Source of the DNA: Epinephelus fuscoguttatus
Lineage: Eukaryota; Chordata; Actinopteri; Perciformes; Serranidae
Assembly: GCF_011397635.1 (NCBI RefSeq)
Contig: NC_064760.1
Span: 26,882,856 to 26,946,855 of the forward strand
Length of the DNA: 64,000 nucleotides
Reading direction: 5' to 3'
Numbering within the stretch: position 1 is the first letter of the stretch; each line of letters begins with the position of its first letter. Of this stretch, positions 23,778-62,772 are shown piece after piece. The notes below the pieces were generated by a model that searched no databases, had not been told where the DNA came from, and saw only the letters and a list, made by a program, of their open reading frames with translations. Both the position numbers and the translations under genes were made by a program.

Positions 23778-24058
23778 CTACAGAGGTGGGCCAGAGGGCA
23801 GCCCCAGCTCAGCCCAAAGCATAGGGTCTCTGCTTTGAAGGTGAGTTAACAACTTCCTGCTGGCTTTGCATCCTTTCTTCCGTATCATGTCGATGAGGCG
23901 GCGTGCCCTGTTTGCACTGGTACTGTACTCCTGAAGTATCGAGTCTGTCTCCCCGTCATTCAAGACACCATCCTCCAACAGATCATCCAGCAGCTGGTTG
24001 ATAAGCTCTCTGGACACCCTCTCCACAAGTTTAGGCCTCAGTCTGGCAAGCTCCTTGT
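23778..24058 (-). CDS. Terminal exon: C-terminal CARD
   Basis: Encodes KELARLRPKLVERVSREL, then LLDDLLEDGVLNDGETDSI and ARRLIDMIRKKG, ending in RDPMLWAELGLPSGPPL and TAG. The helix pattern (LLDxLLxxxVLNxxE, then RxLIDxxxxKG) is that of caspase-1 and NLRP1 C-terminal CARDs. It begins at the acceptor 'tcctctag' with split codon G/AC. In the family this CARD is the effector that nucleates caspase-1 filaments after FIIND cleavage. The homologous exon is absent from the visible part of the plus-strand locus. Confidence 0.88.
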
Positions 24059-27000
24059 CTAGAGGAAAAAAGTGGGAAAAGGAAAAAAAAAAAAAAAAAA
24101 AAAAAAAAGGGGTTGGACCTAAATATTGGATTGTTCAGATTTTCACTTATCTGGTGGGTATTCAGTTTCCAATTTTGGGATTTTTTCCCCTTTTTTTCTG
24201 AGGAACGACAAAAAGAAAATTATAAATAAAAATAAATCACAGGGTTTCCCATACATTGATTTATTTGTGATGGTCCACTACTTTATCAATATTGACTGCC
24301 ACTATTCTATTTTATATTTTCTGTTTGTTTACTATTTCAAATGGGTAAATTGTTGTTTCATTGTAGAGCTACACACAGCATATTAATTCACGCAGCTCCT
24401 CCTTGCCCTGCTCCCTCTCTGTCTTTATCACAAGAGCTCTGCACCGGGGACAGTTGGGCTAACTGTTACCATCACATGGCTAAGGGCTTGGGTACATGCA
24501 GTGTTTTTAACCACCTAGAAAACCCGATGTCGATCACTGCTTGCTACTCTTGTGGCCACTCTGTGCCAACTTCACCTGAAGTTGCTAAGCGACCATACAC
24601 AGAGATCCAGAGTTCGTAGCTGATCTTCTTACAGGCATTGTTTTTTAAATGTCTCTGAGGCCTAAAATGCTGTTTCCGTTATATGGGTAGCCTTGATAAA
24701 ATAAAAAAATAAATAAATAAATATACCAACTGCTTCTCCATATGAATCATAAACCAATATTTAGGGAAGAAAGGGACACTATCTAACAGCTGTGATTGGT
24801 TGTTCCTCATCACATCACTGGGTGTGTGTTGCTGGTTCCAAAGGTGGAACGTTTTTTATCTTAGGGTGCAGCCATTACGCCCTGAAAAACAGACACTTGA
24901 GAATGCCTGTGTGCTGTGTCAGCATCACTCTCCCTTTTGAGTGCACCTTCCACGTGTCTCCATTGACATTATATTCAAGGGGGCAAAGAAACACAGGATG
25001 TGTGCGGGCCCTAGTGTTAACGATTATTAACAGCTTTAACGGCAGAGATGAGCCATTTCAGTGTTGGTGTGAGTTTGTTGGGACTGTTTAACAGCTCAGT
25101 ATTGGATGTTAGCCGCTGCTGCTGTGGTAGCTTGTGCTAAGGGGCAGACACACTGAACATTTGCCAGGAGAGCAGCTGTGGAGATGTTCCTTCAGCCCTG
25201 CGTCTAACCTGCGTAACAGACAGGCTAAATCTTATGATCTCAAATCCTACATTTGTGGAGCTAGTGTACTGTTTCTGCACTTCTGTTTTACAGCCCTTTG
25301 TCAGACATCATCTCAAATTTGGAGCCTGTTGTTATAACCACCCACCTCCACCCCAGTCCAAGTTTCAAATATTCCCTGTTGATTACTACCAAAGCCCAAA
25401 AAAATGCTATTTGGGAAAGGGCTGCAATGATTAGTCGACTAATTGATGACTAATCGACTATTAAAATAATCTGTGACTATTTTAGCAGTCGACTAATCCG
25501 TTGGAGTCATTTTTCATAGAAAAGTACTATAAAAGTACTCCAAAATACTCTTGTTGCAGCTTCTTACACTCAAATATTGGCAGCTTTACACACTCTCCCA
25601 TGACGGTGAACTAAAACCCTTTGGCGTGAGTACGAAACAAGACATTAAATGACAATAATTTGGGGGTTTGGGAGAGACAGACCGACATTTTTCAACATTT
25701 TAACACATTGTTTGATAAAATGATTAGTTGACTAATCGAAGAAATAATCGGCAGATTAGTCGCCAATGAAAATAATCGTTAGTTGCAGCCCTAATTTGGG
25801 ACGCCAATTTTTTTCCAAGAATGACAAAGGCATGACCCACCCTACTCTTTTTCTGATTTGTTAGTGCTCGTTGCCTTCCTTATATTTCATACATGTGTAT
25901 TTCTACTGAGTACTCATCATATATTATGTCTTACCATACATCACCTGAACATCACCAGTGTTTTGATAGTCATCTGAAATAAAATCCAGATAAACAATAT
26001 GTAAATTTTATGTTCTGCATTCACAACACAAGACACTTAATTTAAGCCATTTTAGCTAAACAAGAACAATATACAGGTGCCGTAAATACACACATCACAG
26101 AATATCATTTCATCACCACTGACCTTTTCGAATTGCACAGGTCCACACTTGTCCACTTGTTTCGTGTCTGAGTCCGAGCTCGAAATTACTGTCAAGATCG
26201 ACAATGAACACTTCGAAGAAGTTTGGGTCACACCATTCATATATGAGCTTTAATTTCTGTGACAGAAATATATAAAAGGGAAAGGAGCAGAGTTAGATTT
26301 TGTGCTGAGGTCAATTTTTAAAATGTGAGAAGTTGCACACTTGCTGATATCTTCAGGTGGCAAGCCACAGGGGCTGTATTTTACCAAAACAATGCAATGA
26401 CAGGACATGATGACGCCTCTGCTCTGCTCAGTGTGCCTGTTTTCCTGGCTGTTTTTCTGTTTCAGGATGCGGGTCAAGGAAGAGGGTCATCATTAACCTC
26501 ATGAGCCACATCAGGGCCTGGCCATGATATAGAGGCTCACCATCTACCAACAGAGCCTCCCTCCTCGTTTTCACTGATCGGTTACTTATTGTATTTATTT
26601 TTGTAAATAAATGAGCTCTTATAAGTATTTGTTCACTCGTCTCATTTCCGATCATTGTTCCAGCCTAAGAGCCGGGATTAACAATATCTTTAAGAAAATG
26701 TTGACCTTTTGGAAAACATGCTTGATCTGGCTGGTAAATCAGAACACAGTTAGCTTAGCTTAAACACTGAAAGCAAGGGGAAGCAGCTAGCATGACCGTG
26801 TTAATCCTTATGTTTGTCCATGAGTTTCATCCTTAAATAAAACACAGTGTATTTAACAAGTTGTCATTTACGAGAGATAATACAGACTGTTAGTTAGCTT
26901 TAGAAGGTGCTGGTCAGCAGATTCTGTAACCTTTGGACAGAGCCAGGCTAGCAGTTTCCTCCTGTTTTCAGTCTTTATGCTACGCTAAGCTAACTATCTC

Positions 27001-30000
27001 CTGGCTTTAGCTTCCTATTAGTCCATTTTATTTATTTCTGGACCACAATTAAATCAATAAGTAAATACAGTCCAAACTTTACCTTGGGGTAAATTTCTGC
27101 AGTGACCATATCAGCTGTGAGGATGAAATAGTCACGCATTTTCAGGGATTTTTCTGGGTATGGTTTTTGGATCACTTTGCATCCACTGGATAATTCCTTG
27201 TTCTGTATTTTCTGTGGGAAGAAAAAGACATTGTCAGCACAAAGATGCTTCAAGGTTACAGCAGCCAACATTGCTGCCTGTGTTTTGAAGTGTGAATCAA
27301 CATGGTGCCAGTAAGATATGTAATCACCTCTTCTAGAGCCGGATCACAAGGGATCACATAGACATGCAGTGTGAGGAATGTTTTGGTGGTCTTGTATATT
27401 AACACTTTACAGTGAATTCTCACGGAGAAGCCGGCTCTCATCAGGACTCCTCTTGGAGAGAAAGCTGGCTGAGACAACTTGACATGGGATGATGTGACCT
27501 CAGACACTTGTTCCACAATGTCTCCACATGTATCTATGTGGACGACTGCAAACTTGTCTAAAACTGTAGGGTTGTCTTCTGCACAAAACACACGTGTATA
27601 AAGGTTTTGAAAGACATACATCAAACATTACTGAGGTTGTTACATCTTGTTATTATCATATGATGTTGCTTACCTGTGCAGATCCAGTGTGGCAAATGTG
27701 CTTCATCTAATTTTCCAGCAATGACTGTAATGTCCAGTAGGGGACCTCCGGGGATGTACTGCTTGGTTTCCAGTCTGTCTGCGTGCCCCTCCCAAGAGCA
27801 AAACTGGTACTTGAAGCTGACCTTTTCCTTACAAACCCAGCGCAAGCCAGACACACTGCATTCAAAGGCACCTGCTTCAGACTGCAGGCTAATTCATGAA
27901 AGGGAGAACAAGTATTGTAAGTTTGGGTCTCCTTTGTGCTAGAATATTGTAAGATCAGAAATATCGTTAATGTAAACAGAAAACAAAATCTGCCTTGTTT
28001 TAATTTGCTGTGAAATGTAACAATACCACAATAATTGTAATTATGTATTGGCATTAACATAAAACACCGAAAAAGATCGTAGTTTTCCTTCTGTGAAAAT
28101 GTGTTTGCTGTGCCAAAGTATTTGAAGACATTTTTTTACCTGTAAATTGGAGCATCGTCTGCATCCACACAGTTCACTTCAGGCTCAAGTTTAATCCAGT
28201 CATGCTCAGGCAACAGATCACTTCCGGTTGCCCCCACACTCAAAAGAGGATCATTGTGTGACATCTGAAACAGGTTAAAGTAATAACTTACTGTAGATTC
28301 ACAGTATATTCTAAACAGTAGTACAGCTGATACTTTTGTTGTGGTGAGATGAAAAGAGTCTTGAAAGGTTCTGTATGTGACATTCAGAGCATTAATGTAG
28401 CTGCAATCAACTATTTGCTGTGTAAAGATTTTAAAGAGTAATGACGTCCTGAGCAGAGAATGAAGTCACGCTCACTCAGTGTGCTGTTATTCGAGCTTCT
28501 CTGTATTTTGTTGTGGTCGATGGTCCTGCTGTGGTTGTTGTTAATGCATGTTGGGCCCTGTGTGTTTATCATGCCAGCTAGCTAATCTGCCACTGCACAA
28601 CACTCATAGAGCATTTACCACTGACAATGCCATCCTGAACCACGCTGGTGGGACGCTGTAGTCGCCAAAGCGTAATGCCCACCCTCTGGTACCCTCCCAA
28701 CCTCATGTTAACACAGGTGGCTCTGTCAGCACTGTTGCTGTTGTTAGCACAGCTGTGTGAAGACAGACAAAACAGTCTGTATGTTTTTCTCCCGACAGCC
28801 AACAGAGGGACAGCAACCATCAGTCATGGTGGGTGGAGAGAGACTTGATGTGGTTGAACACTTTAAGTACCTAGGGGTAATCTTCGATTCTAATCTTAAT
28901 TTTAAGCAACATGTTAAAAAAGTCACAAATTAAATTTAACTTATCAAATCTCAAACATATAAGACCTTTCCTGACTATGGAGTCAGCGAAGATCTATGCA
29001 TGCAATGATATTTACTCACATTTCCTACTGTTATACAACATGGTCACATACATCAGAGAGTACTTTAAAACCAACCTAGTCTCTCTTCAAGAGAACACTT
29101 AAAACTCTTGACAAAAAACCTACACATTACCATTCTTGTAAAATTATTAATAAGTACAAAATCTTGGACTTTGATAGCCACTGGTTGTTTTTGGATGTCT
29201 GTCTCATCTTTAAGGTTTTGAATGGACTAGCCCCTTCACTATTACAGGACTTCTTCAAGAAAAAGTCTTCAAGAGTAAACACCAGAGCACTGACTAGAGG
29301 AGACTGTGATGTACAACGGCGCAGGACTAAATTTGGCCAAATGGTGGTGTCCATCAGAGGAACAGTCTTGGAACACACTGCCAGCTCATATTAGAAACTG
29401 TGACAATTACACCACCTTTAAAAAGACCCTTAAACAGTGGTTGAAAACAAGCCAGACCTGCTCTCATGGGTAACCTCTTTGTCTTGTCTATTTTGTGTAT
29501 GGACTTTTAACCTTTATGTGAATCGGGACTTATTTTTTGTGTAAGATTTCTACATGTTTTATCCATTTGTCATGGTGTATTGTCTGTATGTTTTTTTATG
29601 ACATCTGCCTTAGGACAACGGATGCAATTTAGCAACTGTGCTAACTCCGGCATATTTATATTGATGCTTCTTGCTGATATGTTGATTAATGTGTATTGTC
29701 CTAATCAAATAAATAAATTTAAAAAAAAAAAATACCCTGAATCACAGATATGCTCTGAGTGTCACATACGACTCTAAAACTATAGGAGGTAACTTCATGA
29801 AAAGATTGTTGTCACATTGGCTGAAACTGTCACAACATATACGAAGTATTAGAGACAGATAGTCTGTGAAAAGATTATGTCCCTCCTCCTCCTATTGCCT
29901 CTGGTGGCATTTGCTACAATCTACCACAGTGCACCAAAAACAACAAATCAGACCCAAGGAGTGTCTTTTTTTTTTAAAGATATTTTGGGGTCTGTCTGTA

Positions 30001-31118
30001 TTGGACAGGCCAGGATAATTGTGAAGAGGGGAGAGGGAGGATGACATGCAGCAAAGGGTTGCAGCAGGGACATTGTCATTGTACATGGGACACCTGCTCT
30101 ACCTACTGAGCTACTGGGCACCTGGAGTCTCTAACGTAGCTGTCAATTTTGTCAATCACTTCATGAACTGCAGTCAAACTGTCAAACTTGACAGTGCTGA
30201 TCAAATCTGAATCAAGATTCTGTTACTCCCTATTTTCATAAACATATTTTAGTGTACTGTTTAGCTGTAAAATAAAAGTTTATGACCTGACCACTATGGT
30301 GGAAATAGTCAACTGCAGTCACAAGCACCGCCCACTAGGCGGACCAGCTCTCTCATTTTACAGCTAAACAGTACATTCAAATATGTTCCTGAAAACATTT
30401 GAGGTGAAAAACAGGCAATGCAGAAACAGAGTCTTAATATTGTATTTATATATTGATATTTGAAATGTTGACTCTTGATTGTAATCATCAATCCATGCAT
30501 GTCAAAATTAAAATAAAAGTAGATGCAAAGCACAAACAACCTGCTGCAGAGGGCAAAAAGGATGCTTTAGACAGCTGAGGATCTACTCACATGGACTGGT
30601 TCTGGGTCAATAATCCCACGCTGTGCATCAAGTCTGAAATGATAAAGGATAATTGACTATGTTTACTGATGGCCCTTGCAGTCTGTTTCTCCAGCTGGCT
30701 TACGGAAACATACATTTTATTTATTCATTTACTCATTTTAAGTATAGAGATTAGCGTCACTGATCAAGGCAGAGACGGCAGTGCTACACATCTGAAAAAA
30801 AATCTATGCACACAAAGTATCAATTGCAAATAAAGAAAGTCCAAAGTAAAAGCCTGTGAATTTACGGTGACGTCTCCTCCGTGAGATGATGCGACTCCAG
30901 TCTCTCAATGATGCTGGAAAAGATTTCTTTGTGTCCAGCAGTTTTCAGATGACCATCGAGGAGTTCCTTCATCTTCTCCGCCGAGGTTGGGAGAGCGCTG
31001 ATTTTATCATAACTGTCCTGCTGAATGACTCCCTTGGTGAGGAGCTCATCCAAAATTGGTTCAACGTTGCTCACACCATGGATCAGCTCAGCTCTGCTTT
31101 TTCTCAAAAAGATCTCCC
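23778..31118 (-). CDS. CARD-FIIND-CARD inflammasome-type protein (NLRP1/CARD8-like), whole locus
   Basis: Nine exons seen with GT-AG borders and mutually consistent phases, plus the 3' CARD exon, give about 489 residues: ASC-like CARD, short linker, FIIND (ZU5 then UPA) and C-terminal caspase-1-type CARD. Exons in transcript order: 31118-30866, 30633-30591, 28264-28140, 27888-27674, 27578-27328, 27211-27083, 26256-26124, 25973-25935, 24058-23778. In NLRP1 and CARD8 the FIIND self-cleaves and the released UPA-CARD fragment recruits caspase-1; the residues for this are present. No NACHT or LRR exon was seen. The first exon opens with an acceptor needing one base from an upstream exon, so the true 5' exon (a PYD in the inverted paralogue at 57.3 kb) is missing or unrecognised. 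Function as a cytosolic danger sensor or adaptor is inferred from the family. Confidence 0.85.
25417..25793. mobile_element. hAT-like MITE in an intron of the CARD-FIIND gene
   Basis: Starts 'aagggctgcaatgattagt' and ends 'gttagttgcagcccta', terminal inverted repeats of a common fish hAT MITE. It is flanked by a perfect 8-bp duplication 'atttggga' at 25409-25416 and 25794-25801. The interior is full of 'gactaatcga' inverted motifs. Confidence 0.9.
25935..25973 (-). CDS. Short linker exon between UPA and CARD
   Basis: A 39-bp exon (acceptor 'tttatttcag', donor GTAAGAC) encoding DYQNTGDVQVMY. Its phases (two bases in, one base out) connect exactly with the exon before and the CARD exon after. 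It is too short to be found as an ORF. Confidence 0.8.
26124..26256 (-). CDS. UPA exon 3 of the FIIND
   Basis: Encodes KLKLIYEWCDPNFFEVFIVD, then GLRHETSGQVWTCAIRK, matching the end of the UPA fold, where a Trp-containing strand is followed by the CARD linker. The 133-bp exon runs from acceptor 'ctgtcacag' to donor GTCAGTGG and ends in phase 1. Confidence 0.85.
27083..27211 (-). CDS. UPA exon 2 of the FIIND
   Basis: A 129-bp phase-0 exon: KIQNKELSSGCKVIQKPYPE, then KMRDYFILTADMVTAEIYPK. It corresponds to the central UPA strands. It is joined directly, without frame change, to the exons on both sides. Confidence 0.85.
27328..27578 (-). CDS. FIIND exon with the self-cleavage site and UPA start
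   Basis: Encodes DNPTVLDKFAVVHIDTCGD, then KLSQPAFSPRGVLMRAGFSV and LTLHVYVIPCDPALEE. The Phe-Ser pair at codons 27462-27457 lies where CARD8 and NLRP1 cut themselves (SF-S in CARD8), and PRGVLMRA aligns with the following UPA strand. Two bases at the 5' end complete a codon with the previous exon; the 3' end is phase 0. In the plus-strand paralogue this exon is cut off after the CKVL codons and fused to PYD sequence. Confidence 0.88.
27674..27888 (-). CDS. ZU5 exon of the FIIND
   Basis: Encodes SLQSEAGAFECSVSGLRWVC, then KYQFCSWEGHADRL, DITVIAGKLDEAHLPHWICT. The LPHW motif (His codon 27687-27689) corresponds to the catalytic His of the LPHF motif in CARD8/NLRP1 FIINDs. The acceptor is the 'gaattag' AG, not the later 'ctgcag', because only this one keeps the reading frame. 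A second long frame across this exon is a shadow. Confidence 0.88.
28140..28264 (-). CDS. Linker exon before ZU5
   Basis: A 125-bp exon starting ATGTCACACAATG after 'cctgtttcag' and ending phase 2 at GTAAAAAAA. It encodes MSHNDPLLSVGATGSDLLPE, then KLEPEVNCVDADDAPIY, an acidic stretch that leads into the FIIND. The Met could be an internal start for a short FIIND-CARD isoform. Nearly identical to 61771-61895 on the other strand. Confidence 0.82.
28769..29733 (+). mobile_element. 5'-truncated LINE fragment (reverse transcriptase C-terminal part)
   Basis: Reads KTVCMFFSRQPTEGQQPSV, then ERLDVVEHFKYLGVIFDSNL, the FKYLGV motif of LINE reverse transcriptases (L2/Rex1/jockey-like). Further on come FKVLNGLAPSLLQDFF and RRRTKFGQMVVSIRGTVLEH, also typical of these proteins, but in other frames with stops. 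It ends in an A-rich tail at about 29720-29732. The sequence on either side is continuous in the plus-strand paralogue near 61200, so this is a clean insertion in the minus locus. Confidence 0.8.
29950..30122 (-). mobile_element. tRNA-derived SINE
   Basis: On the minus strand it begins 'aggtgcccagtagctcagta', a box A-like tRNA head, followed by a degenerate box B-like region and a tail ending in a T-run on the + strand near 29967. The head is a cloverleaf relic, not a functional tRNA gene. Confidence 0.65.
30591..30633 (-). CDS. Short linker exon after the ASC-like CARD
   Basis: 43 bp from 'atcatttcag' to GTGAGTAG, encoding LDAQRGIIDPEPVH. Phases (one base in, phase 0 out) fit both neighbours. 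The same exon is found at 59297-59339 on the other strand with identical coding. Confidence 0.8.
30866..31118 (-). CDS. ASC-like CARD exon
   Basis: Encodes GEIFLRKSRAELIHGVSNVE, then PILDELLTKGVIQQDSYDKI and AEKMKELLDGHL. The pattern RAxLIxxVxNVExxLDxL, with a short helix 3 and KMxxL, is that of the CARD of the adaptor ASC (PYCARD). Acceptor 'tttttctgcag', donor GTAAATTC, two bases in and two bases out. Reading past the donor gives a false stop four bases on. In the inverted paralogue the matching exon follows a PYD exon, so the original protein probably had PYD-CARD order. Confidence 0.85.
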
Positions 31119-32574
31119 CTGCAGAAAAAGTCAAAGATAAATTACTCATTGTTGATTTATTGGATTCACTGCAAAATACTAAACATACTTTTGAAAGAAC
31201 AAAGGTAGGCTAATATTTTCAAACTGTGAATTTTGAATTTTGGAGTTAAAAAACTGCATCTATGTACAAACATTTAGCCTAATGTTAAATTCAAAAACTT
31301 TTCATTTCCCATAATAGACCCTTCAACAAAGGTCCCTGGTCGGACTGAAACCAGGGATTTTGCAAATCAAGATAGCACCTTAACCTATGGGGCACTGAAG
31401 TGCATCACAAAACTGTGTTAAGATTTTTTTTTTCCTACAACATTTTTCAGGCAACAAACAAATTTAATAAGAATTCAGAACATGAAGATGCCAGGGGATA
31501 TCAAGCAGAGCCCAAAAAAAGTGAAAAATACAACAGAAACAAAAAAGTAGAAATAATAACATATAAATAAAATCAAAAGGAGAAAGAGAAAAGATAATCG
31601 ATTTAAAAAAAAAATAGACTTAAGATATAAATTTAAAAACAACAAATCAAAACAAATTTTTCTGGATCCTAAACTTTTACAGTATATGAACGAGCAATTA
31701 TAGATCTCAGCTAGCTCAATGCAAAAAAATGTATTGCATTATTATGGAAAGGGATTTATAGACCAAGGATTACTCAGTGGACAAAGCAGATGTTATCAAG
31801 TCTCCCATTAGAGAGAATAACTTACATATTAAAGGCCAAACAGCATACGTTTGAATTTATATGGGGACCCTTCATAGATGTTGTAAAGGATTTAGATTTA
31901 ACAGGTGAGGTGAGTGAGTAGGTTCGATGGACGATGCAGTTTTCAAGTTTATAATTTATTTTCAAATCATTCTGTTTTGCAATTTTTTTTCTAGACATCT
32001 GGATTTAACATATGTCACAATTAATATACTCCATTTTATGAGTACTATTTTGAGACATGACATTTGGAGATTTTTACTGGCTTGAACAGGAGCATAACTG
32101 TTTGTTTTTTTTGTTTGTTTGCGTTTAAGTATGTTTGTTGTTGTTGTTGTTTTTGTGATAATGCAGCAGGCCTTTATATTTACAAACATTGTATGAATGA
32201 AAAGAGGCTGTATCTTATAATGTTGAAAAAAAAAAAAATTATTGTGGCAATAATAATACTATAATGCATGGTGAAGGTAACTGGAGACCATGCAGTACAA
32301 TGCTGAGGGCATGACATAACTGCGTTCACGTTGTCTGAAATAAGAAGCGTTTTCATATATTGTTGGGTTTCTTTTAAGAACAATTTTCAGCAGGGCTTGA
32401 CTTTAGTACCTTTGCTCTTATAAATATGATGAGCACAAAACAAATTCAGGAAGGATATGATCAACAATGAAAACACTAATATCACACCAAACATAAGGTA
32501 TCCTACATGAGAGCAGCTCCAATGTAAGTGAAAGGTACTAACAACCCTCAAGCAACAAAAGAGCCAACATTAAA

Positions 32575-42160: not shown

Positions 42161-42973
42161 TATGGGGTGCCGTTTGTAAAGTGGCTCACGCTGAAAATAA
42201 CATCAACATTTTGCCACATTTAGCTTCAAACAATGTTTAAAAAAGTGTTGTGAATTATTTAACGTCACCTTTTACCACATTTACAGCAATATTTGTTAAC
42301 TCAGAAATATATTAAATAGTTAAATCTAAATACTAAATGTGGCACCTAAATGTTAAATGTTAAATCTAAATATTAAATCTAAATCTAAATGTTAAATCTA
42401 AATGCTAAATCTAAATCTAAATATTAAATCTAAATCTAAATGCTAAATCTAAATGCTAAATCTAAATGTTAAATCTAAATATTAAATCTAAATTTAAATC
42501 TAAATGTTAAATCTAAATATTAAATCTAAATCTAAATCTAAATGTTAAATCTAAATATTAAATTTAAATCTAAATCTAAATGTTAAATCTAAATATTAAA
42601 TCTAAATCTAAATGTTAAATGTTAAATCTAAATGTTCTGGGTGAAACTAAATATTTAGCTAATATGCAAATTCACACTGTCGGCACCGGAAGTACCAAAA
42701 TAAAAGCTCGAGATGTCACACTGTGTTTATAGAATCAAATAACGAATTAAAACCAACTTATCGGGGGAAATGAACACTTGAACATACATTAGCGTGATAA
42801 TAACTACCTAAAATAACAAGAAACATGTTTGGAGAAATTTTATTTGACGTGTACTTTGAGTTGTTAGTGTCCCTTCTATGGAGGGTGTGGGACTTATGAC
42901 CTGTACTACAGGCAGCCACAAGGGACCGATCGAGATGTTTTGGCCAGCACTATCCTACCCCCGCCCCCACCCA
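42161..42973 (+). repeat. Left terminal inverted repeat
   Basis: Matches the reverse complement of 53963-54787 from the tip to a shared C-rich block (near 42955-42973). Its middle (about 42320-42640) is a low-complexity array of TAAATCT, TAAATGT and TAAATAT units. Confidence 0.85.
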
Positions 42974-43886: not shown

Positions 43887-44999
43887 GATGGCTACCAAGG
43901 AAGGCATCACATTTCTAAAGGGGAACTTGAACATGTTCTTTCACTGAAGACCACATTTACTGAAGCTGCGTCTATTCTTTCAATCTCGAGGCCAACTTTC
44001 TACAAGTTATTGCAAGACTATAATATCCCAACATCAAAATTTATCAGCATCAGTGATCAACAATTGGATCTTAAAGTGTCACAAATAAAAACTGAACACC
44101 CAAATGTTGGAGAAGTGATGCTTATGGGGCATCTGCGCTCCCAAAACATTGTGGTTCAAAGACAACGTTTAAGAGATTCACTGCGAAGGGTGGACCCAGT
44201 TGGTGTCCTAGCCAGGAGAAGAACAGCAATAGCTCGGCGAGTATATTCTGTCCCACATCCAAATTTCATATGGCATGTGGATGGAAATCATAAGTTGATT
44301 AGGTGGAAATTGGTTGTTCATGGTGCAATAGACAGCTACAGTAGGATGTTGATGTTTCTTCACTGCTCCAACAATAATCGAGCTGAAACTGTGAAAGACC
44401 TCTTTACCGCAGCTGTTGGACAGTTTGGTAGACCACTGCACATCAGGACTGATCATGGAGGAGAGAACGCTCAGATCTGGGAGGACATGCATGCGAGCAG
44501 GGGTGAAGGCTCTGTCTTAACAGGAAGCTCTGTGCACAACCAGAGGATTGAGCGTTTCAACCGAGACTTGAACAAAAACTGCAGCCATGTTTATGCACCT
44601 ATTTTTTATGAACTGGAATCACTGAGTATCCTAGACTTAGAAAATGCAACAGACCTATTTTGTCTCCATTATGTCTTTCTACCCAGAATCAACCGCACTT
44701 TGGAGGAATTCAAAGCTGGATATAACAATCACTCTATGTCATCTGAAGGAAATAGAACACCAGTTCAGCTTTTTACTCTGGACACTTATTTGCTTCGTCT
44801 TCACAACCCAGAACTCCCAACAGCAGAGGTAGTTTTTCGCTCCTCACCAAACTCTCAAAGAGGATTTTCCCCATTAAATGACAGAGATTTGCAAGAACTG
44901 AATTATACCATTAACCCTCTTCAAAATGACAACAATAATGGCAAAACGTTGTTTCAGAGAACACAGCAGTTTGTTTTTGATAAACTTGTCAATGTGTGA
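43887..44999 (+). CDS. DDE transposase (integrase-core), main exon
   Basis: 371 codons to TGA 44997-44999, giving a 460-residue protein with exons 1-3. Near the start, SILSISRPTFYKLLQDY looks like a helix-turn-helix. The integrase-like core has Asp in FIWHVDGNHKL, Asp in HIRTDHGGEN and Glu in VHNQRIERFNRD; 56 residues separate the Asps and 32 the second Asp and the Glu. HGAIDSYSRM matches the strand after the first Asp in retroviral-type integrase folds. No stop or frameshift was seen, so the enzyme could be active: it would bind the terminal repeats and cut and join DNA in the nucleus. The nearest family I recall is the Pfam-type 'integrase core' of eukaryotic DNA transposons. Confidence 0.88.
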   Translation, partial: DGYQGRHHISKGELEHVLSLKTTFTEAASILSISRPTFYKLLQDYNIPTSKFISISDQQLDLKVSQIKTEHPNVGEVMLMGHLRSQNIVVQRQRLRDSLRRVDPVGVLARRRTAIARRVYSVPHPNFIWHVDGNHKLIRWKLVVHGAIDSYSRMLMFLHCSNNNRAETVKDLFTAAVGQFGRPLHIRTDHGGENAQIWEDMHASRGEGSVLTGSSVHNQRIERFNRDLNKNCSHVYAPIFYELESLSILDLENATDLFCLHYVFLPRINRTLEEFKAGYNNHSMSSEGNRTPVQLFTLDTYLLRLHNPELPTAEVVFRSSPNSQRGFSPLNDRDLQELNYTINPLQNDNNNGKTLFQRTQQFVFDKLVNV

Positions 45000-53962: not shown

Positions 53963-54787
53963 TGGGTGGGGGCGGGGGTAGGATAGTGCTGGCCAAAACA
54001 TCTCGATCGCTCCCTTGTGGCTGCCTGTAGTACAGGTCATAAGTCCCACACCCTCCATAGAATGGACACTAACAACTCAAAGTACACGTCAAATAAAATT
54101 TCTCCAAACATGTTTCTTGTTATTTTAGGTAGTTATTATCACGCTAATGTATGTTCAAGTGTTCATTTCCCCCGATAAGTTGGTTTTAATTCGTTATTTG
54201 ATTCTATAAACACAGTGTGACATCTCGAGCTTTTATTTTGGTACTTCCGGTGCCGACAGTGTGAATTTGCATATTAGCTAAATATTTAGTTTCACCCAGA
54301 ACATTTAGATTTAACATTTAGATTTAGATTTAATATTTAGATTTAACATTTAGATTTAGATTTATATTTAATATTTAGATTTAACATTTAGATTTAGATT
54401 TAGATTTAGCATTTAGATTTAACTTTTAGATTTAGATTTATATTTAATATTTAGATTTAACATTTAGATTTAGATTCAATATTTAGATTTAACATTTAGA
54501 TTTAGATTTAGATTTAGCATTTAGATTTAGATTTAATATTTAGATTTAACATTTAGATTTAGATTTAGCATTTAATATTTAGATTTAACATTTAACATTT
54601 AGGTGCCACATTTAGTATTTAGATTTAACTATTTAATATATTTCTGAGTTAACAAATATTGCTGTAAATGTGGTAAAAGGTGACGTTAAATAATTCACAA
54701 CACTTTTTTAAACATTGTTTGAAGCTAAATGTGGCAAAATGTTGATGTTATTTTCAGCGTGAGCCACTTTACAAACGGCACCCCATA
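53963..54787 (-). repeat. Right terminal inverted repeat
   Basis: Reverse complement of the left repeat with few differences; the low-complexity (T)TTAGAT array spans about 54290-54620. Next to its inner end, 53921-53959 has a 39-bp block that on the left side is found only 510 bp further in (43484-43522). Confidence 0.85.
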
Positions 54788-54793
54788 GTGTTA
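54788..54793 (+). repeat. Right target-site duplication (gtgtta)
   Basis: Directly follows the right terminus and is identical to 42155-42160. Confidence 0.85.
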
Positions 54794-55061
54794 TAACTCC
54801 GCATTACCGTGTATTGATGTCCACAGGGGGGAGAGGGAGAGAGAGATACAAAAAATTTCCTGATAATTTTTTGTATAATTGGCGCTTGTGTGGGAACTGA
54901 CAGCCCATGTCCTCAGCTGTGGAGAGTATGTGCTGCAGGGAGTTGGGTGCCTTCTGGGCTCTGGTGGAGAATCTGACCAGACCAGACATAACATGCCTCA
55001 TACTGCCCATCAACCCTCACGCGCCTGCTCCCGTCTCAAACACAGAGGCCTCCCTCTCCGC

Positions 55062-55178
55062 GGAGCCCGCCCGCCCTCACACATGCCCCTGAGGCTCAGG
55101 TCTCCGTCTCCGCGGAGAGCCCCAGACCGGAGAGGGAGACCTGAGCCTCACTGGTATGTGCGAGGGCGGGCGGGCTCC
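55062..55178. repeat. Long GC-rich hairpin
   Basis: Arms starting 'ggagcccgcccgccctcaca' on the left and ending in its near complement, ggcgggcgggctcc, on the right. Within them, 'gaggctcaggtctcc' and 'ggagacctgagcctc' pair perfectly. Arm length is about 45 bp with a loop of about 20 bp. No coding role seen. Confidence 0.75.
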
Positions 55179-55823
55179 ACCAGGAACATAATCCTCCTGT
55201 CCAAAATTAATGCACACGACCACATTTTTGGTCACAGATGAAGCCGTGAAATCGCGCCTCTTCACCTGCACAAAACGCACCCAGACACGAAAACTAACTC
55301 CACTCCTTTTTCTGTCCAGAAAACGGTGGACTCATGTCCTGACAGACTTTAGTTTGTGCAACCTGCACAAACACAATAATTCGGCATAATCACAAATGGT
55401 CAAATGCACTGTTAACAACCGAAAAAATACTAACTCACAAGTTTACTACCGCTCAGACACACTACCACCTACGACTGCACACTGGACATAGGCAGGGTCA
55501 AGGACGCAGAGTCCCTCTCGTGACATAGTATCAGGCGATGTTAAAAAAAAAAGCGTTTTTAGAAGAGGAGCTAAAAAGAGCCACTTTTTTCTCTGAATTT
55601 GTGCCCTTATGTTGTGTTAACCATAATACATTCTGAATTAACTTCTCATATGGTCATTTCAGACAAGGTTATGTACATATTTATATATTTTTAAAACAAT
55701 TTAACCTGCAAGTTGCACTTTAATTAAAAAGGAACATGTGTTTGGAGCACAGCAGATCTCAATGTGATCACTTCACATTTCTTTGGAGCTAAAACAAAAT
55801 GCCATTCGCTGAGATTTGGAACT

Positions 55824-55826
55824 GAC

Positions 55827-55867
<41 letters not shown>

Positions 55868-55868
55868 A
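55824..55868 (+). repeat. (TGAT)n microsatellite
   Basis: Eleven or so TGAT units, perhaps the tail of a degraded retroposon. Confidence 0.85.
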
Positions 55869-56000
55869 TAGTCATTGCTGCCTCTGTTAAGTGTCAGTGA
55901 GTTTTCATCTGTCTCTGTCGATGTGACAGTGGGACATCCAGGTATTTTTGGCAGACTGCCTTTGACACACAATGTATTGGGAAATATTAAATCTTTTTCT

Positions 56001-56075
56001 GGCGCCATGGTGGAGCAGTGGTTAGCATTGTCGCATCATGCCAAAGGGGTTCCTAGTTTGAATATAATACAATAC
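56001..56075 (+). mobile_element. tRNA-derived SINE head
   Basis: 'ggcgccatggtggagcagtg', then 'gttagcattgtcgc' and 'ggttcctagtttgaat' resemble the box A and box B head of a common fish tRNA-SINE. The body is not clear. Not a functional tRNA. Confidence 0.6.
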
Positions 56076-56589
56076 ACAGGCTTCCATCAGTTTTCACAGG
56101 CTCAGTTATCACTTTGTTACCTCATTGGGTGATAATGACATAATCAGCATTTATTTTAATGAAAATCTTCAAGATAATTGATTTAATTTAAACTTTAGTT
56201 GATCAATTTATATTAAAAGTGACCCCACACTGGTTATCTTACCTGTTCTTAACAAAGCCAGCATTGTGATAAATGTTTTTTTTTTTTTTTTTATCAGAGC
56301 ACTGTTTGTCCTGATTTGGTAATCTTGAAAAGTTTGTATCTGGATCAGGTTGATCCAGTCAAAATTGCTTTGAAAAAGCAGTAGCCTACAACAGTGAGAT
56401 GCATTATCTGATTCTGAATACCAAAACATGCGATTGGATCATTGTGGTCCAGATTTATTTTTCTGGCCAACTGTACCCAGAGGATTTGATCCAGAATGGC
56501 TGATTGAGAAAAACATTGAGGTCAAGCTAAACCATCCAAAGTGACAGAGACAGACAGAAGCAGAGCAGACTGCTGTAAGTCGGTACACC

Positions 56590-56591
<2 letters not shown>

Positions 56592-56635
<44 letters not shown>
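56592..56635 (+). repeat. (GT)n microsatellite
   Basis: Pure GT dinucleotide run of about 22 units. Confidence 0.92.
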
Positions 56636-56637
<2 letters not shown>

Positions 56638-57210
56638 GAGCTGACCTCAGTCAAACAGAGGACAGAAGTAGATACCAACAAACACTGTGAAAATAAACAC
56701 TTAAATGAAGGGAAAACACTGGTGTTTTTAATTATATCTACATTTTGTCAAATTCCACAATAGTCCGTTTCTAAGTTTTACATATAAGTCCGTCCGTGTT
56801 TTCCACTGTTTCACATTAATCCTTGAAAACAAAGAAAACGTGTGGCTGTCTCTGTATCCAGTTTTTTTTATTACAGTATTAAAAACATGCCTGATCCGTC
56901 TTGTTTGAGGAATCAACTCACAGTCCATTCTGATAGATATTTCCTGCCTGACAGAATGAGCTACTCTACTACATTTATAGAGGCTGTATGTCTGCTTCTC
57001 ACACATATCTGACCTGAGTGGCTACTAAACAAGGGTAGGGCTAGGGTAGGTCATTATGAGTGAAAGGCTTGGTTCATCAGAGTAGTTCATCCTGAGTGGG
57101 TAGCCAAACTTTCAGAACACCGCCTCGCTCTCGCGATTTTATCGCTGTCTACTTTTATGATACGTCAGAGGAAGTCGGGATGAAGTCGGACACAAAACCG
57201 GCAGGCACTG

Positions 57211-57262
57211 TGCGGAGATCGCCAGTGATCGAATCTGCGCAGGCTTGGACCATCTCGGATGA
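57211..57262. mobile_element. MITE right-end fragment directly upstream of the PYD exon
   Basis: 'gatcgccagtgatcgaatct' and the terminal 'catctcggatgagccta' match the right end of the MITE at 41009-41744. It ends 70 bp before the PYD start codon, so it may form part of the promoter or 5' untranslated region. Confidence 0.6.
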
Positions 57263-57334
57263 GCCTAATGAGAAACACCTACCGACTCTTGACAAGCACG
57301 AGTCATATCTGTGTTGCTTGAATCTGTGAGAAAA

Positions 57335-57587
57335 ATGGAGTCCAAACCCCTAAAAACTATTGTGCAGGACACACTGATGCACCTCAAATGCAGAGATGCA
57401 GCTATGTTCTGCCTCGAGCTGGACAGACGCATAAGTGTGCCGGTGGTTACTTTGTTGAAGCTGGCAGCAAAACCTGGAGACACCTCAGAGATGATAGACC
57501 ATCTGTTTTCAAGCTTCACTGAGGCTGATGCAGTGTCAGTGGCTGTGGATGTACTGAAGGAGATTGACTACGACACACTCAAACTAG
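57335..57587 (+). CDS. Pyrin-like (PYD) exon of the plus-strand PYD-CARD-FIIND gene
   Basis: MESKPLKTIVQDTLMHLKCR, then ELDRRISVPVVTLLKLA, MIDHLFSSFTEADAVSVAVD and VLKEIDYDTLKL. The run of an acidic helix 2, (I)P near the start of helix 3, then (M/V)xxxLxxxFxxxDAVxVxVDVLKEI and DxLKL matches pyrin death-fold domains of fish ASC and NLRs. 84 codons plus one base to a GTAAAG donor at 57588. ATG 57335 has A at -3 and G at +4; an upstream in-frame ATG (57311) is possible. The role is homotypic PYD assembly, inferred from the fold. No copy was found at the minus locus. Confidence 0.7.
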
Positions 57588-60500
57588 GTAAAGTTTTTGC
57601 ATACTCTGAACAGAAAAGTCTGACCTATCACACTGCAGGACATTTATTCCTCAAGACTGCTTGCAAATAATACACTGTTTGAAAAATTAAGGGAACACTT
57701 AAATCACACATCAGATCTTGATGAATGAATTATTCAACTTGAAAATCTTTGCTGATGTATGTTGTATAATTTGTTGAGAAAAAAGTCAATGGAAACCAAA
57801 ATCAACAACTCACTGAGGGCTGGATTCAAAATCACACTTCAACCAAGTTAAAGTATTCATTTCTTTTGAGCTTTTACATACTTGAGTGTCAGTAGGAGCT
57901 GCTCTCACCATATCCTTGATGAATTTGTTTTATGTTTACCATATTCCTTATTTATAAGAGCAAATGTACTGAAGTCAAGCCCTGCTGAAAATTGTTCTTA
58001 AAAGAAACCCAACAATATATGGAAACACTTCTTATTTCAGACAACGTGAACGCAGTTATGTCGTACCCTCAACATTGTACTGCATGGTCTCCAGTTACCT
58101 TCACCATGCATTATAGTATTATTACCTCCGCCAAGGAGGTTATGTTTTCGCCAGCGTTGGTCTGTTTGTCTGCAAAATAACTCAAAAAGTTATGAACATG
58201 TTTTGATGAAATTTTCAGGAAAGATGGATAATGGGACAAGGAACAGATGATAAAATTTTGTTGGTGATCGGTTGAAGCACAGTAGATAAAATAATAAATA
58301 AAGTCTATCGTCTGACATAGAATTAGAATAATTCCAATTTCTAAAGACGGTGAAAATAGCGCCATCTAGTGGCCGGAAAGCACATCTTGTTCTACTTGCT
58401 AAATATTGTAATTCTGAAGTTGAAATTAATGTTCTGTGTTGGAAAAAAGAAAGTGAAAAATACAGAAAAAACATACTATATTCTGTGTTGGTACAAAATA
58501 AAAACGAAATAAATACACTACAGTGTCTCCATGGTGAAGGCATATATAACCTAATAATGATAGTGATGCAGATAACCTAATTGTGATGCAGGCTGCAAAA
58601 TGTGATACAGAGGGGGAGGGAATATCAGCTACTTGGGGGAGGTTTGCACTCTCTGAGTGCTTTTCTAGTTTATTATTTGTTGTTTTTGAATTTATGTCTA
58701 AAGTCTATTTTTTAAAAATCTATTGTCTTTTCTTTCTCTCCTTTCGATTTTTTATTTATATGTATAGTTTATTTATTATTATTTCTACTTATTCATTTCT
58801 GTTGTATTCCCGTAGAGGAGCGCTTGAGAAAAAGCAGAGCTGAGCTGATCCATGGTGTGAGCAACATTGAACCAATTTTGGATGAGCTCCTCACCAAGGG
58901 AATTATTCAGCAGGACAGTTATGATAAAATCAGTGCTCTCCCAACCTCGGCGGAGAAGATGAAGGAACTCCACAATGATCATCTGAAAACTGCTGGAGAC
59001 AAAGAAATCTTTTCCAGCATCATTGAGAGACTGGAGCCTCATCTTCTCATCGAGGAGACGTTACCGTAAACTCACAGGCTTTTACTTTGGACTTTCTTTA
59101 TTTGCAATTGATACTTTGTGTGCATAGATTTTTTTCAGATGTGTAGCACTGCCGTCTCTGCCTTGATCAGTGACGCTAATCTCTATACTTAAAATGAGTA
59201 AATGAATAAATAAAATGTATGTTTCCTTAAGCCAACTGGAGAAACAGACTGCAAGGGCCATTAGTAAACATAATCAATTATCCTTTATCATTTCAGACTT
59301 GATGCACAGCGTGGGATTATTGACCCAGAACCAGTCCATGTGAGTAGATCCTCAGCTGTCTAAAGCATCCTTTTTGCCCTCTGCAGCAGGTTGTTTGTGC
59401 TTTGCATCTACTTTTATTTTAATTTTGACATGCATGGATTGATGATTACAATCAAGAGTCAACATTTCAAATATCAATATATAAATACAATATTAAGACT
59501 CTGTTCTGCATTGCCTGTTTTTCACCTCAAATGTTTTCAGGAACATATTTGAATGTACTGTTTAGCTGTAAAATGAGAGAGCTGGTCCGCCCAGTGGGCG
59601 GTGCTTGTGACTGCAGTTGACTATTTCCACCATAGTGGTCAGGTCATAAACTTTTTTATTTTACAGCTAATCAGTACACTAAAATATGTTTATGAAAATA
59701 GGGGTAACACTTTACAATAAGGTACACAAAAGTAGTTTGAGTAGTTAGAGTAGTTACTGAGGAACTAATGAGTAACTAACTGTTAGTTAATGGTCAGTTC
59801 TTCATTAACTCATGATCAAATTTCATAGAGGAGTTCATCACGACTTAATAATTAGTGAACTAGTTACTTCATCATTACAGAATCATTACTCATTAACCTG
59901 TCCATTAGTTAACCTTTTTATGCCCTAAGGTAAAGTGACACATGAGTAGTCTTTCATTAGGCTACTTCATCATTATCTTTACAATTAGTTCCTTAACAAA
60001 AAAAATCGCAGACAACAGGATTCTTGAGAAGAGTTTTATTCATTATTTTCAGACCACATACACATTAATATGACCATCCATGTCATTCTGTACGATGATG
60101 CCTTAGAAATAAATATGATAGTGTGTCACATTTTAGGTAGGCTAAGCTTAAAGAATTTATCATGGGGGCTGTGTGTAAAGTACTGTATACTGATCACACC
60201 GTTGTTCACAGTACAGTTGTTTGAGGTGCACAAAATTTAAAGTAGTTACTATGAAACAAATTTGGAATGAATGAGGAACTAACTATTAGTTAATGGTCAG
60301 TTCTTCAGTAACTCCTGATCAAATTTCAGAGGAGTAGTTACTGAGGAACTAATGAGGAACAAACTATTACTTAATCATTATCTACCCTTTTTGTGTACCC
60401 TAAAGTAAAGTGAGACATCAAAATGAGTAGGTAATGAGTACTGAATCATTACCTACTCATTTTGATGTCTTTAGGGTACACAAAAAGGGTAGGTAATGAT

Positions 60501-62772
60501 TAGGTAATAGTTAGTTCCTCATTCATTCCAAATTTTTGGCCGATTGAGCATGTTGAATCGGCGGCGGAGCTTGTCGGTGAGAGAGATCACTCTGATTGGC
60601 TGTTCAGGTTTTATTTCCTCATCCCTGTAGCGAGTGAATCTGCCTGTAGTGAAACCGGGGCTAACTGGTGCTTCCTCCTCAGGCTCCACTTCACTCAGCT
60701 GCCCACAGACCTGCTGCTTTTTCCCACTTTAACCTGAATGACAAACCGGGGCTAGCTGTGAGGCTAGGGGAGCATTAGCCGCAGCATGACCGGAGGGAAG
60801 CACAGCCAGTTAGCCTCTGCTAGCCTCCCAGCTAGCCCCGGCTCTCCGTTTGGATTCAAACGGAGAGCCGAGCCCCGTTTGTTATTCAGATTAAAGTGGG
60901 AAGAAGCAGTGGGTTTGTCTGGCAGCTGAGTGAAGTGGAGCCTGCGGAGGGAACACCTGGGCCGTCTGGATGTAATAGTCCGTGGAGGTGTTGCAGTGCT
61001 CGGCTGCACAGATAGGAAACCCCTTGGCTGACAGGATGTATCACTCTGTCACTCCGCGCTACTTTGTTAATAGGCTCATTCGAGATGAAGTGCGCCGCCT
61101 CGCCTGGAAAGTAGACGAGAAGGCGGCTACAGCGTTAAAGTTACCTCCTGTAGTTTTAGAGTCGTATGTGACACTCAGAGCATATCTGTGATTCAGGGTC
61201 TGTCTTCACACAGCTGTGCTAACAACACCAACAGTGCTGACAGAGCCACCTGTGTTAACATGAGGTTGGGAGGGTACCAGAGTTAAGTTTTTTAAGTTTA
61301 TAAGTTTATTCACTTTATTAATCCCCTGAGGGGAAATTCAATGTTTGAGAGGGTGGGCATTACGCTTTGGCAACTACAGCGTCCCACCAGCTTGGTTCAG
61401 GATGGCATTGTCAGTGGTAAATGCTCTATGAGTGTTGTGCAGTGGCAGATTAGCTAGCTGGCATGATAAACACACAGGGCCCAACATGCATTAACAACAC
61501 TCACAGCAGGACCATCAACCACAACAAAGTACAGAGAAGCTCGAATAACAGCACACTGAGTGAGCGTGACTTCATTCTCTGCTCAGGACGTCATTACTCT
61601 TTAAAATCTTTACACAGCAAATAGTTGATTGCAGCTACATTAATGCTCTGAATGTCACATACAGAACCTTTCAAGACTCTTTTCATCTCACCACAACAAA
61701 AGTATCAGCTGTACTACTGTTTAGAATATACTGTGAATCTACAGTAAGTTATTACTTTAACCTGTTTCAGATGTCACACAATGATCCTCTTTTGAGTGTG
61801 GGGGCAACCGGAAGTGATCTGTTGCCTGAGCATGACTGGATTAAACTTGAGCCTGAAGTGAACTGTGTGGATGCAGACGATGCTCCAATTTACAGGTAAA
61901 AAAATGTCTTCAAATACTTCTGCACAGCAAACACATTTTCACAGAAGGAAAACTACGATCTTTTTCGGTGTTTTAACATTAATGCCAATACATAATTACA
62001 ATTATCGTGGTATTGTTACATTTCACAGCAAATTAAAACAAGGCAGATTTTGTTTTCTGTTTACATTAACGATATTTCTGATCTTACAATATTCTAGCAC
62101 AAAGGAGACCCAAACTTACAATACTTGTTCTCCCTTTCATGAATTAGCCTGCAGTCTGAAGCAGGTGCCTTTGAATGCAGTGTGTCTGGCTTGCGCTGGG
62201 TTTGTAAGGAAAAGGTCAGCTTCAAGTACCAGTTTTGCTCTTGGGAGGGGCACGCAGACAGACTGAAAACCATGTGGTACATCCATGCAGGTCCCCTACT
62301 GGACATTACAGTCATTTCTGGAAAGTTAGATGAAGCACATTTGCCACACTGGATCTGCACAGGTAAGCAACATCATATGATAAAAACAAGATGTAACAAC
62401 CTCAGTAATGTTTGATGTATGTCTTTAAAAACCTTTATACATGTGTGTTTTGTGCAGAAAACAACCCTACAGTTTTAGACAAGTTTGCAGTCGTCCACAT
62501 AGATACATGTGGAGACATTGTGGAACAAGTGTCTGAGGTCACATCATCCCATGTCAAGTTGTCTGGGCCAATTTTCTCTCCAAGAGGAGTCCTGATGAGA
62601 GCCGGCTTCTCCGTGAGAATTAACTGTAAAGTGTTAAAGCTACAAGATCAACATTTAGACAACTCAGAGATCGTAGACCTCCTGGTTTCAAGCTTCACTG
62701 GGACTGATGCATTGCCAGCGGCTGTGTGGTTACTGAAGGAGCTTGGCTGTGACGGCGACATACTCAAACTAG
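57335..62772 (+). CDS. PYD-CARD-FIIND gene with chimeric FIIND/PYD exon (locus, continues beyond the window)
   Basis: Exons in order: 57335-57587 (PYD), 58816-59065 (ASC-like CARD), 59297-59339, 61771-61895 (linkers), 62148-62362 (ZU5), 62458-62772 (FIIND cut site fused to PYD tail), then 63942 onwards (second CARD). All phases agree: 1, 2, 0, 2, 1, 1. The inverted paralogue at 23.8-31.1 kb has the same CARD to ZU5 order but goes on to a full UPA and C-terminal CARD. Here the UPA is lost at the fusion and the gene reads into a second PYD-tail/CARD unit. It is a cytosolic immune sensor or adaptor by family; whether the chimera is expressed is unknown. Confidence 0.75.
57588..58815 (+). other. 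PYD to CARD intron (tandem copy 1)
   Basis: Nearly identical by eye to 62773-63941 at a constant offset of 5185 bp for about the first 600 bp. Includes a dispersed fish repeat at about 58120-58290 ('ccaaggaggttatgttttcg'). The same intron, without that repeat, is recognisable in inverted orientation at about 32240-32670. Confidence 0.8.
58816..59065 (+). CDS. ASC-like CARD exon (plus-strand gene, copy 1)
   Basis: EERLRKSRAELIHGVSNIEP, then ILDELLTKGIIQQDSYDKIS and AEKMKELHNDHLKTAGDKEI. Same CARD as 30866-31118 with about ten residue differences and a three-base shorter 5' end. Acceptor 'ttcccgtag', donor GTAAACTC; 2 + 82 codons + 2. Confidence 0.85.
59297..59339 (+). CDS. Short linker exon (plus-strand gene)
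   Basis: 43 bp, LDAQRGIIDPEPVH, from 'atcatttcag' to GTGAGTAG. Identical coding to 30591-30633. Confidence 0.8.
60258..60535. repeat. Foldback element 1
   Basis: 'aaatttggaatgaatgagga' at the left is answered by its complement at 60516-60535. Around the centre, 24-bp perfect arms ('gacatcaaaatgagtaggta...') surround an 8-bp loop. Arms total about 135 bp, with some differences. Confidence 0.8.
60673..60951. repeat. Foldback element 2
   Basis: 'cctcaggctccacttcactc' and 'gagtgaagtggagcctgcgg' are inverted outer arms. Inside, 'ggctctccgtttg' and 'caaacggagagcc' form a perfect 13-bp hairpin at 60840-60869 with a 4-base loop. Confidence 0.75.
61771..61895 (+). CDS. Linker exon before ZU5 (plus-strand gene)
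   Basis: MSHNDPLLSVGATGSDLLPE, then KLEPEVNCVDADDAPIY; 125 bp, phase 0 in, phase 2 out. Coding identical or nearly so to 28140-28264. Confidence 0.82.
62148..62362 (+). CDS. ZU5 exon of the FIIND (plus-strand gene)
   Basis: SLQSEAGAFECSVSGLRWVC, then KYQFCSWEGHADRLKTMWYI and DEAHLPHWICT. LPHW has the catalytic-type His. It differs from the minus copy mainly at the stretch after GHADRL (KTMWYIHAG instead of ETKQYIPGG). Confidence 0.87.
62458..62772 (+). CDS. Chimeric exon: FIIND cut site fused in frame to a PYD tail
   Basis: Starts like the normal FIIND exon: NNPTVLDKFAVVHIDTCGD, then KLSGPIFSPRGVLMRAGFSV and RINCKV, with the Phe-Ser pair at 62574-62579. After about 62630 it departs from the minus copy and reads KLQDQHLDNSEIVDLLVSSF, then PAAVWLLKELGCDGDILKL, the C-terminal half of a PYD, ending at the same GTAAAG donor used by the PYD exon at 57587. 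The length (2 + 104 codons + 1) keeps the reading frame into the next CARD exon. It probably arose from unequal recombination near the short match 'gttaaagct'/'gttgaagct'. Most of the UPA is lost here. Confidence 0.82.

Follow-up and report, generated by a model that had tools for sequence, protein, structure and literature searches.

CARD8 combines a FIIND bearing a catalytic histidine and a Phe-Ser site with a UPA domain and a C-terminal CARD of the caspase-1-binding type; it lacks both NACHT and LRR and, according to an excerpt of PMC7483925, has no structured N-terminal domains. In NLRP1 and CARD8, destruction of the N-terminal fragment releases UPA-CARD, a process called functional degradation (excerpts of PMC7483925 and PMC11781737). 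Fish NLRP1 is given as NACHT-LRR-FIIND-CARD, with PYD absent, in the excerpts of PMC9978379 and PMC12436146, some fish NLRPs terminate in FIIND-CARD (excerpt of PMC11508797), and a figure legend for zebrafish Gbp3 and Gbp4 gives the domains as GBP, FIIND and CARD (excerpt of PMC4932187). The adaptor ASC (PYCARD) is a PYD followed by a CARD. Here we analyse a 64,000-nucleotide stretch of Epinephelus fuscoguttatus DNA (contig NC_064760.1; hereafter the window) that holds copies of a gene family in which an ASC-like PYD-CARD and a FIIND-CARD are very probably encoded by a single gene. Judging from sequence and by analogy, we think it reasonably probable that its members are FIIND sensors that work in the manner of CARD8 and NLRP1, lack NACHT and LRR, and carry an ASC-like PYD-CARD, possibly a bait, as their N-terminal fragment.

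The grouper family resembles CARD8 in its C-terminal half and in the lack of NACHT and LRR, but it carries an ASC-like PYD-CARD where CARD8 has no structured domain: PYD and CARD precede FIIND in the gene on the plus strand (the plus gene) and in its relatives, and a CARD does so in the gene on the minus strand (the minus gene). Like human, rodent and fish NLRP1, it ends in FIIND-UPA-CARD and has the predicted self-cleavage site, but neither NACHT nor LRR gave a Pfam match in ten exon-sized open reading frames (ORFs) of the window, in ten relatives or in 91 of the 101 remaining ORFs that reach 75 aa or more in the window. ASC stops after its CARD, whereas the family runs on through a linker exon into FIIND-UPA-CARD, and its PYD lacks a basic stretch common to the aligned ASC PYDs. 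Zebrafish Gbp3 and Gbp4 are likewise drawn with a FIIND-CARD end on another N-terminal module, which there is a GTPase and not PYD-CARD. An earlier note, made from the sequence alone, knew of no described protein of the order PYD-CARD-FIIND-CARD, and we likewise found none among the literature matches listed (titles and abstract starts), with 0 papers returned for CARD8-like and fish.

Self-alignment of the window revealed inverted copies (27384-28687 versus 61348-62653, 97% identical) and an additional direct copy that begins at 62657; the similarity of the minus copy to the plus copy ends at 32459. Exon chains were built from splice sites and phase, including DNA to the right of the window, for which the window numbering is continued past position 64000 (extended coordinates). 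In the ten exon-sized ORFs, Pfam recognised CARD, FIIND (two exons), UPA (two pieces) and a second CARD on the minus strand, and a weak PYD, CARD and FIIND on the plus strand. All four kinds of exon that the earlier note had described (PYD, CARD, FIIND and C-terminal CARD) are thus present in the window; however, they are distributed among copies, and no single copy has all four inside it. The exons of the plus gene that fall in the window are as follows.

57335..57587, plus strand: exon 1, start codon and PYD (Pfam PYRIN E 0.003, under the cut-off; structure match to PYDs); donor AG/GTAAAG, phase 1
58816..59065, plus strand: exon 2, ASC-type CARD (Pfam CARD E 6e-10); donor ACC/GTAAAC, phase 2, overlapping an in-frame TAA
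59297..59339, plus strand: exon 3, 43-nt linker LDAQRGIIDPEPVH joining CARD to FIIND in phase; borders TTTCAG and GTGAGT; near-identical linker in E. coioides P0001
61771..61895, plus strand: exon 4, FIIND start (exon chain)
62148..62362, plus strand: exon 5, FIIND (ZU5) with LPHW (Pfam FIIND E 7e-25 on ORF 62143-62412)
62458..62772, plus strand: exon 6, ZU5 end with predicted catalytic His and Phe-Ser (62574-62579), then the in-frame 3' half of a second PYD; same fusion gapless in P0001
63942..64000, plus strand: exon 7, second ASC-type CARD, truncated by the window end and continuing to extended 64191 (exon chain)

Together with exons 8-15, which lie outside the window, the plus gene comprises 15 exons between 57335 and extended 73897. 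Its exon chain gives a frame of 888 aa without a stop, in the order PYD-CARD-linker-FIIND (most of UPA absent)-half PYD-CARD-linker-FIIND-UPA-CARD, and within exon 6 the switch from ZU5 to the second PYD half lies about 20 codons past Phe-Ser. The predicted E. coioides protein P0001 aligns with it over 888 of 888 residues at 90.5% identity with 0 gaps, fusion point included. Since the gene is in frame and matches P0001 without gaps, the internal fusion is inherited, and misassembly is unlikely because the same fusion is present in two genomes. As predicted from its exon chain, the plus gene is two fused units, with two CARDs, one whole PYD and half of another before a single complete FIIND-UPA-CARD; the first FIIND may not cleave, because most of UPA is absent there. 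The minus gene, with nine coding exons from 31118 to 23778, encodes 489 aa counted from its CARD exon, in the order CARD-linker-FIIND-UPA-39-nt exon-CARD.

30866..31118, minus strand: ASC-type CARD, first coding exon found (Pfam CARD E 7e-13)
30591..30633, minus strand: linker exon (exon chain)
28140..28264, minus strand: FIIND start (exon chain)
27674..27888, minus strand: FIIND (ZU5) with LPHW (Pfam FIIND E 8e-26)
27328..27578, minus strand: ZU5 end, predicted catalytic His (27540-27538), predicted cleavage site between Phe and Ser (27462-27457), UPA start (Pfam FIIND E 1e-9, UPA-FIIND E 1e-7)
27083..27211, minus strand: UPA exon (exon chain)
26124..26256, minus strand: UPA exon (UPA-FIIND E 3e-5, 25.1 bits, slightly under the cut-off of 27)
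25935..25973, minus strand: 39-nt exon DDYQNTGDVQVMY (exon chain)
23778..24058, minus strand: C-terminal CARD, apparently of caspase-1/CARD8 type, and stop codon (Pfam CARD E 7e-19; its homologue in P0013 matches ICEBERG and caspase-1)

Whether the PYD-CARD and FIIND-CARD exons belong to one gene or to two had to be considered because the plus CARD exon (whose donor, ACC/GTAAAC, is a weaker one) reads into an in-frame TAA shortly past the CARD, and because FIIND exon 1 opens with ATG. On a two-gene reading, an ASC paralogue (PYD-CARD, with its stop shortly past 59065) would lie ahead of a separate CARD8-like gene for FIIND-CARD that begins at MSHND, the pair forming a repeated two-gene unit; a FIIND-CARD copy on C15 with no PYD-CARD within 20 kb upstream, and the E. 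lanceolatus protein P0005, predicted to begin at MSHND, are in keeping with it. A splice leading straight from the CARD exon to FIIND exon 1 was rejected, as the phases disagree. The 43-nt linker exon, found through P0001, which uses it, leads from phase 2 to phase 0 and joins the two parts in frame-preserving phase at three sites, two of them in the plus gene and the third in the minus gene. A 2111-base contig carries a 513-aa frame with PYD, CARD, FIIND and UPA (P0027), and a 2473-base contig a 471-aa CARD-FIIND-UPA-CARD frame (P0012). Both contigs are too short to hold introns, and they are most likely transcripts, because the same parts in the grouper span several kilobases with introns. 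PYD, ASC-type CARD and FIIND occur in this order in at least 17 of the 146 database proteins listed, from 16 named species, as scanned with our own hidden Markov models (HMMs), and, with the plus gene added, in at least 18 of the 150 sequences scanned, four of which were our own additions. The 146 proteins were drawn from listings, one of which gave 120 of 190 matches, so these counts are lower bounds. Against the linker, P0027 and the joined order in 16 species, two adjacent genes are a very improbable explanation. The claim of the earlier note that both modules sit in one protein without NACHT or LRR thus holds up.

We next considered what the individual domains are. Pfam gave FIIND (ZU5) and UPA matches on the window exons (one UPA piece slightly under the cut-off) and in 10 of 10 relatives; the PYD of the window, which is under the Pfam cut-off, has a structure match to PYDs. 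The predicted structure of this PYD exon has a pLDDT (per-residue model confidence) of 78; Foldseek with this small model returned 59 matches, none at E <=0.001 (best E 1.1, with a viral protein in the top rows), and VIA-align re-ranking of the top 100 Foldseek chains placed PYDs first, a tool that cautions on helical bundles. A profile built from six PYD-CARD pieces and compared with PDB retrieved full-length ASC first, across both domains (E 2e-23), and the top row other than ASC was the NLRP1 CARD alone (E 4e-14). A tree was built from 69 PYDs out of 134 (groups of more than 22 randomly thinned; pieces shorter than 68 residues and proteins without FIIND, except ASC, excluded). In it, 18 of the 19 PYDs that precede an ASC-type CARD grouped with ASC PYDs (support 83/77), with 16 of them in one group (98/98) and P0021 outside the rest, and the 43 PYDs of other FIIND proteins formed a separate clade (100/99); the tool flagged few columns and long branches for this tree. 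Together with the six-piece profile, the tree bears out the ASC-type front half described in the earlier note, and we place moderate confidence in a link between the PYDs of the family and those of ASC, as judged from their sequences.

The C-terminal half was examined mainly through a relative, P0013 of Siniperca. Its FIIND-UPA matches rat NLRP1 (E 1e-22 for the stretch; E 7e-36 for the whole sequence, N-terminal CARD included), its FIIND-UPA-CARD matches CARD8 (E 5e-26), and its last CARD matches ICEBERG, caspase-1 and CARD8 by sequence. Foldseek on the P0013 model returned the caspase-1 CARD (TM-score by target 0.94), with full-length ASC at ranks 6 and 8. By way of this relative, sequence and model suggest that the last CARD is of the caspase-1/CARD8 type, in agreement with the earlier note. 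The FIIND fold was not judged from the model because ZU5 is poorly modelled (pLDDT <50 for residues 185-339). All 15 of the 15 rows aligned share His310, Glu319, Phe336 and Ser337 of P0013, and the spacing of His310, Glu319 and Ser337 equals that of His1186, Glu1195 and Ser1213 in human NLRP1 as read from the alignment; we take Glu1195 and its equivalent to have a catalytic part. These four residues are also retained in the two gene models, which between them contain three FIINDs, one FIIND lying outside the window. The Phe-Ser motif and residues H1186, H270 and H942 are reported as catalytic in NLRP1 and CARD8 (excerpt of PMC8081665).

The domains of the family differ in how well they are conserved. 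Among 16 of the 18 sequences with the PYD-CARD-FIIND order (P0055 and P0122 left out), mean pairwise identity was 37.9% for the PYD (16 members), compared with 51.0% for six ASC PYDs from another species sample, 57.8% for the N-terminal CARD, and 75.0% for ZU5; UPA, available from 12 members, gave 73.7%, and the last CARD, from 14, gave 67.4%. The PYD is therefore the least conserved domain of the family. A (V/I)RR..V(E/D) stretch common to the six aligned ASC PYDs, which presumably builds the ASC filament, is absent from 16 of 16 family members, although P0014 and P0021 retain some basic residues at its position. Within the plus gene, the two PYD halves differ by 17.8 amino-acid-changing and 1.2 silent differences (dN, the rate at changing sites, 0.254; dS, the rate at silent sites, 0.05), whereas the other exons compared gave a dN of 0.049 and a dS of 0.032; a Fisher test of changing versus silent sites in the PYD halves gave p 0.039 on rounded counts, with only ~26 synonymous sites. 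The intron that follows the PYD halves is identical at 599 of 600 sites, and it is at the exon border that divergence gives way to identity. This sequence pattern fits diversifying selection on the PYD halves. When E. fuscoguttatus is compared with E. coioides, the second PYD half has changed at 14 of 41 residues and the first FIIND at 7 of 176.

Several observations weigh against our reading of the family. None of the transcript-like sequences found shows all four domains: the match to P0027 ends before the last CARD, its final stretch being unlike the family, so that the last CARD is not demonstrated in it, and P0012 is without a PYD. No transcript of E. fuscoguttatus came up, and the database proteins are mostly gene predictions, which may fuse neighbouring genes. 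The minus gene has no PYD; a PYD HMM run on 281 ORFs between 31.2 and 57.25 kb found no such exon upstream of it (best E 0.68). The window PYD taken alone falls under the Pfam cut-off. In the CARD tree, from which 30 of 115 CARD pieces were left out (19 without FIIND and 11 from other contexts, with pieces shorter than 65 residues excluded beforehand), the N-terminal CARDs mix with those of ASC and of other FIIND proteins, so that origins from ASC and from a C-terminal FIIND CARD are not separated. The divergence of the PYD halves may partly stem from gene conversion of the intron between copies, and not from selection, since conversion could yield the same border. Finally, the first PYD differs between the two groupers at 9 of 84 residues, less than the last CARD at 13 of 90, and fast change is therefore not confined to the putative bait.

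How might such a protein work? By analogy with NLRP1 and CARD8, it is likely that these FIIND sensors act as a tripwire. FIIND would cut itself between Phe and Ser, and the N-terminal fragment, PYD-CARD-ZU5, would remain bound and silence UPA-CARD; destruction of this fragment would then free UPA-CARD, which would polymerise and recruit caspase-1 through CARD-CARD contact. Direct recruitment of caspase-1, as in CARD8, is suggested because the last CARD is caspase-1-like. With less certainty, the ASC-like front would be an integrated decoy, aimed at microbial proteins that bind to ASC, cut it or ubiquitinate it, and not a working adaptor; a bait rather than an adaptor is suggested because this front is poorly conserved. 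That an attack on ASC, a likely microbial target, would destroy the N-terminal fragment and so free UPA-CARD is a tentative proposal, which we regard as possible without calling it probable.

The alternatives to a sensor with an ASC-like bait differ in what they make of the same domains. The PYD-CARD could still behave as in ASC, joining PYD or CARD filaments (for example those of PYD-bearing fish caspases) and so bringing UPA-CARD into the speck or amplifying the signal. The domain order of ASC, the profile match to full-length ASC across both domains and the need of zebrafish NLRP1 for ASC to reach caspases with a PYD-like front (excerpt of PMC9978379) would all suit such an adaptor-sensor. 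We nevertheless find it doubtful, as the PYD is the least conserved domain, the ASC (V/I)RR..V(E/D) stretch is missing from all 16 members, two of them partly basic there, and P0013 already ends in a caspase-1-like CARD. The earlier note had supposed that one protein could combine adaptor and self-cleaving sensor; the order it described is supported, but a working adaptor role is doubtful because of the poorly conserved PYD and the absent stretch. An inhibitor, in which ASC-like and caspase-1-like death folds serve as decoys against the fish's own inflammasome in the manner of pyrin-only or CARD-only proteins, would account for the likeness of the last P0013 CARD to ICEBERG, a caspase-1 inhibitor, besides caspase-1. 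Yet it would not need the FIIND cleavage residues, which all 15 of the 15 aligned relatives retain, as do the gene models, and we judge it quite improbable. Only slightly less improbable is a decaying or misassembled array of recent duplicates and recombination debris without selected function. The plus gene is indeed recombinant, the minus copy shows no PYD, and in the next copy, on the minus strand at extended 79.6-89.3 kb (L010, L011), 1 nt is inserted at the cleavage site, a UPA exon is broken and the PYD exon is reduced to half. However, the 888 codons of the plus gene stay open over 15 exons and match E. coioides without gaps through the fusion point, and the C-terminal CARDs of the two strands' copies are identical, with no difference in 276 nt.

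A possible origin of the fusion was sought elsewhere in the genome. The PYD-CARD of P0027 used as a query gave 17 matches, of which the PYD matches were one on C9 (that of the window) and three on C8. The two C8 PYDs inspected are ASC-type (54-59% to the ASC PYD of P0121), and one of them (L038) is followed, ~5.5 kb downstream, by an ASC-type CARD that ends in a stop. These PYDs, at C8:10.67-10.70 Mb, adjoin further FIIND and PYD exons that form an array. An ASC gene adjacent to FIIND genes would offer a simple route to the fusion. As a separate observation on this region (L037, L038; G000:C8 10.67-10.94 Mb), the CARD looks similar to the one at the C-terminus of the FIIND protein P0059.

Other FIIND combinations came to light in the same material. 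Many fish FIIND proteins in the 146-protein set have a C-terminal PYD instead of a CARD, and some database FIIND proteins have several PYDs or caspase-type CARDs in tandem. CARD-caspase exons lie immediately upstream of FIIND-CARD exons at G000:C5 24.571-24.585 Mb (L013, L014), and caspase, FIIND and CARD are joined in predicted proteins of three Epinephelus species (P0003, P0004 and P0073). P0148 of E. moara, named cytolytic toxin-alpha-like, and P0022 of E. coioides join the same set of other domains to FIIND and UPA, with a CARD added in P0148 (prediction). A single 795-aa open frame at G000:C21 6.83 Mb (L001:202-2589, plus strand) has a long, disordered-looking front, FIIND and, by eye, a CARD-like end, a CARD8-like layout.

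The window also holds a rhodopsin-type G-protein-coupled receptor in an open ORF at 4734-5747 on the plus strand (Pfam 7tm_1 E 2e-67), with weaker receptor pieces at 17476-18186 and 20839-21273, and a transposon-type integrase ORF at 43887-44996 on the plus strand (rva_4 E 2e-69). A further inverted pair (42161-42973 and 53963-54787, 95% identical) contains short AT-rich tandem repeats.

Many family proteins are named NLRP1 homolog or CARD8-like in the databases, which file them as NLRP1 or CARD8 though neither name fits. The family indicates that the FIIND-CARD trigger can be attached to quite different N-termini. Since the N-terminal fragment is recognisably ASC-like, the decoy proposal gains a concrete target and can be tested in fish cells. 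If it is true, ASC would be guarded by a sensor made from a copy of ASC, with two baits in series in the case of the 888-aa fusion gene.

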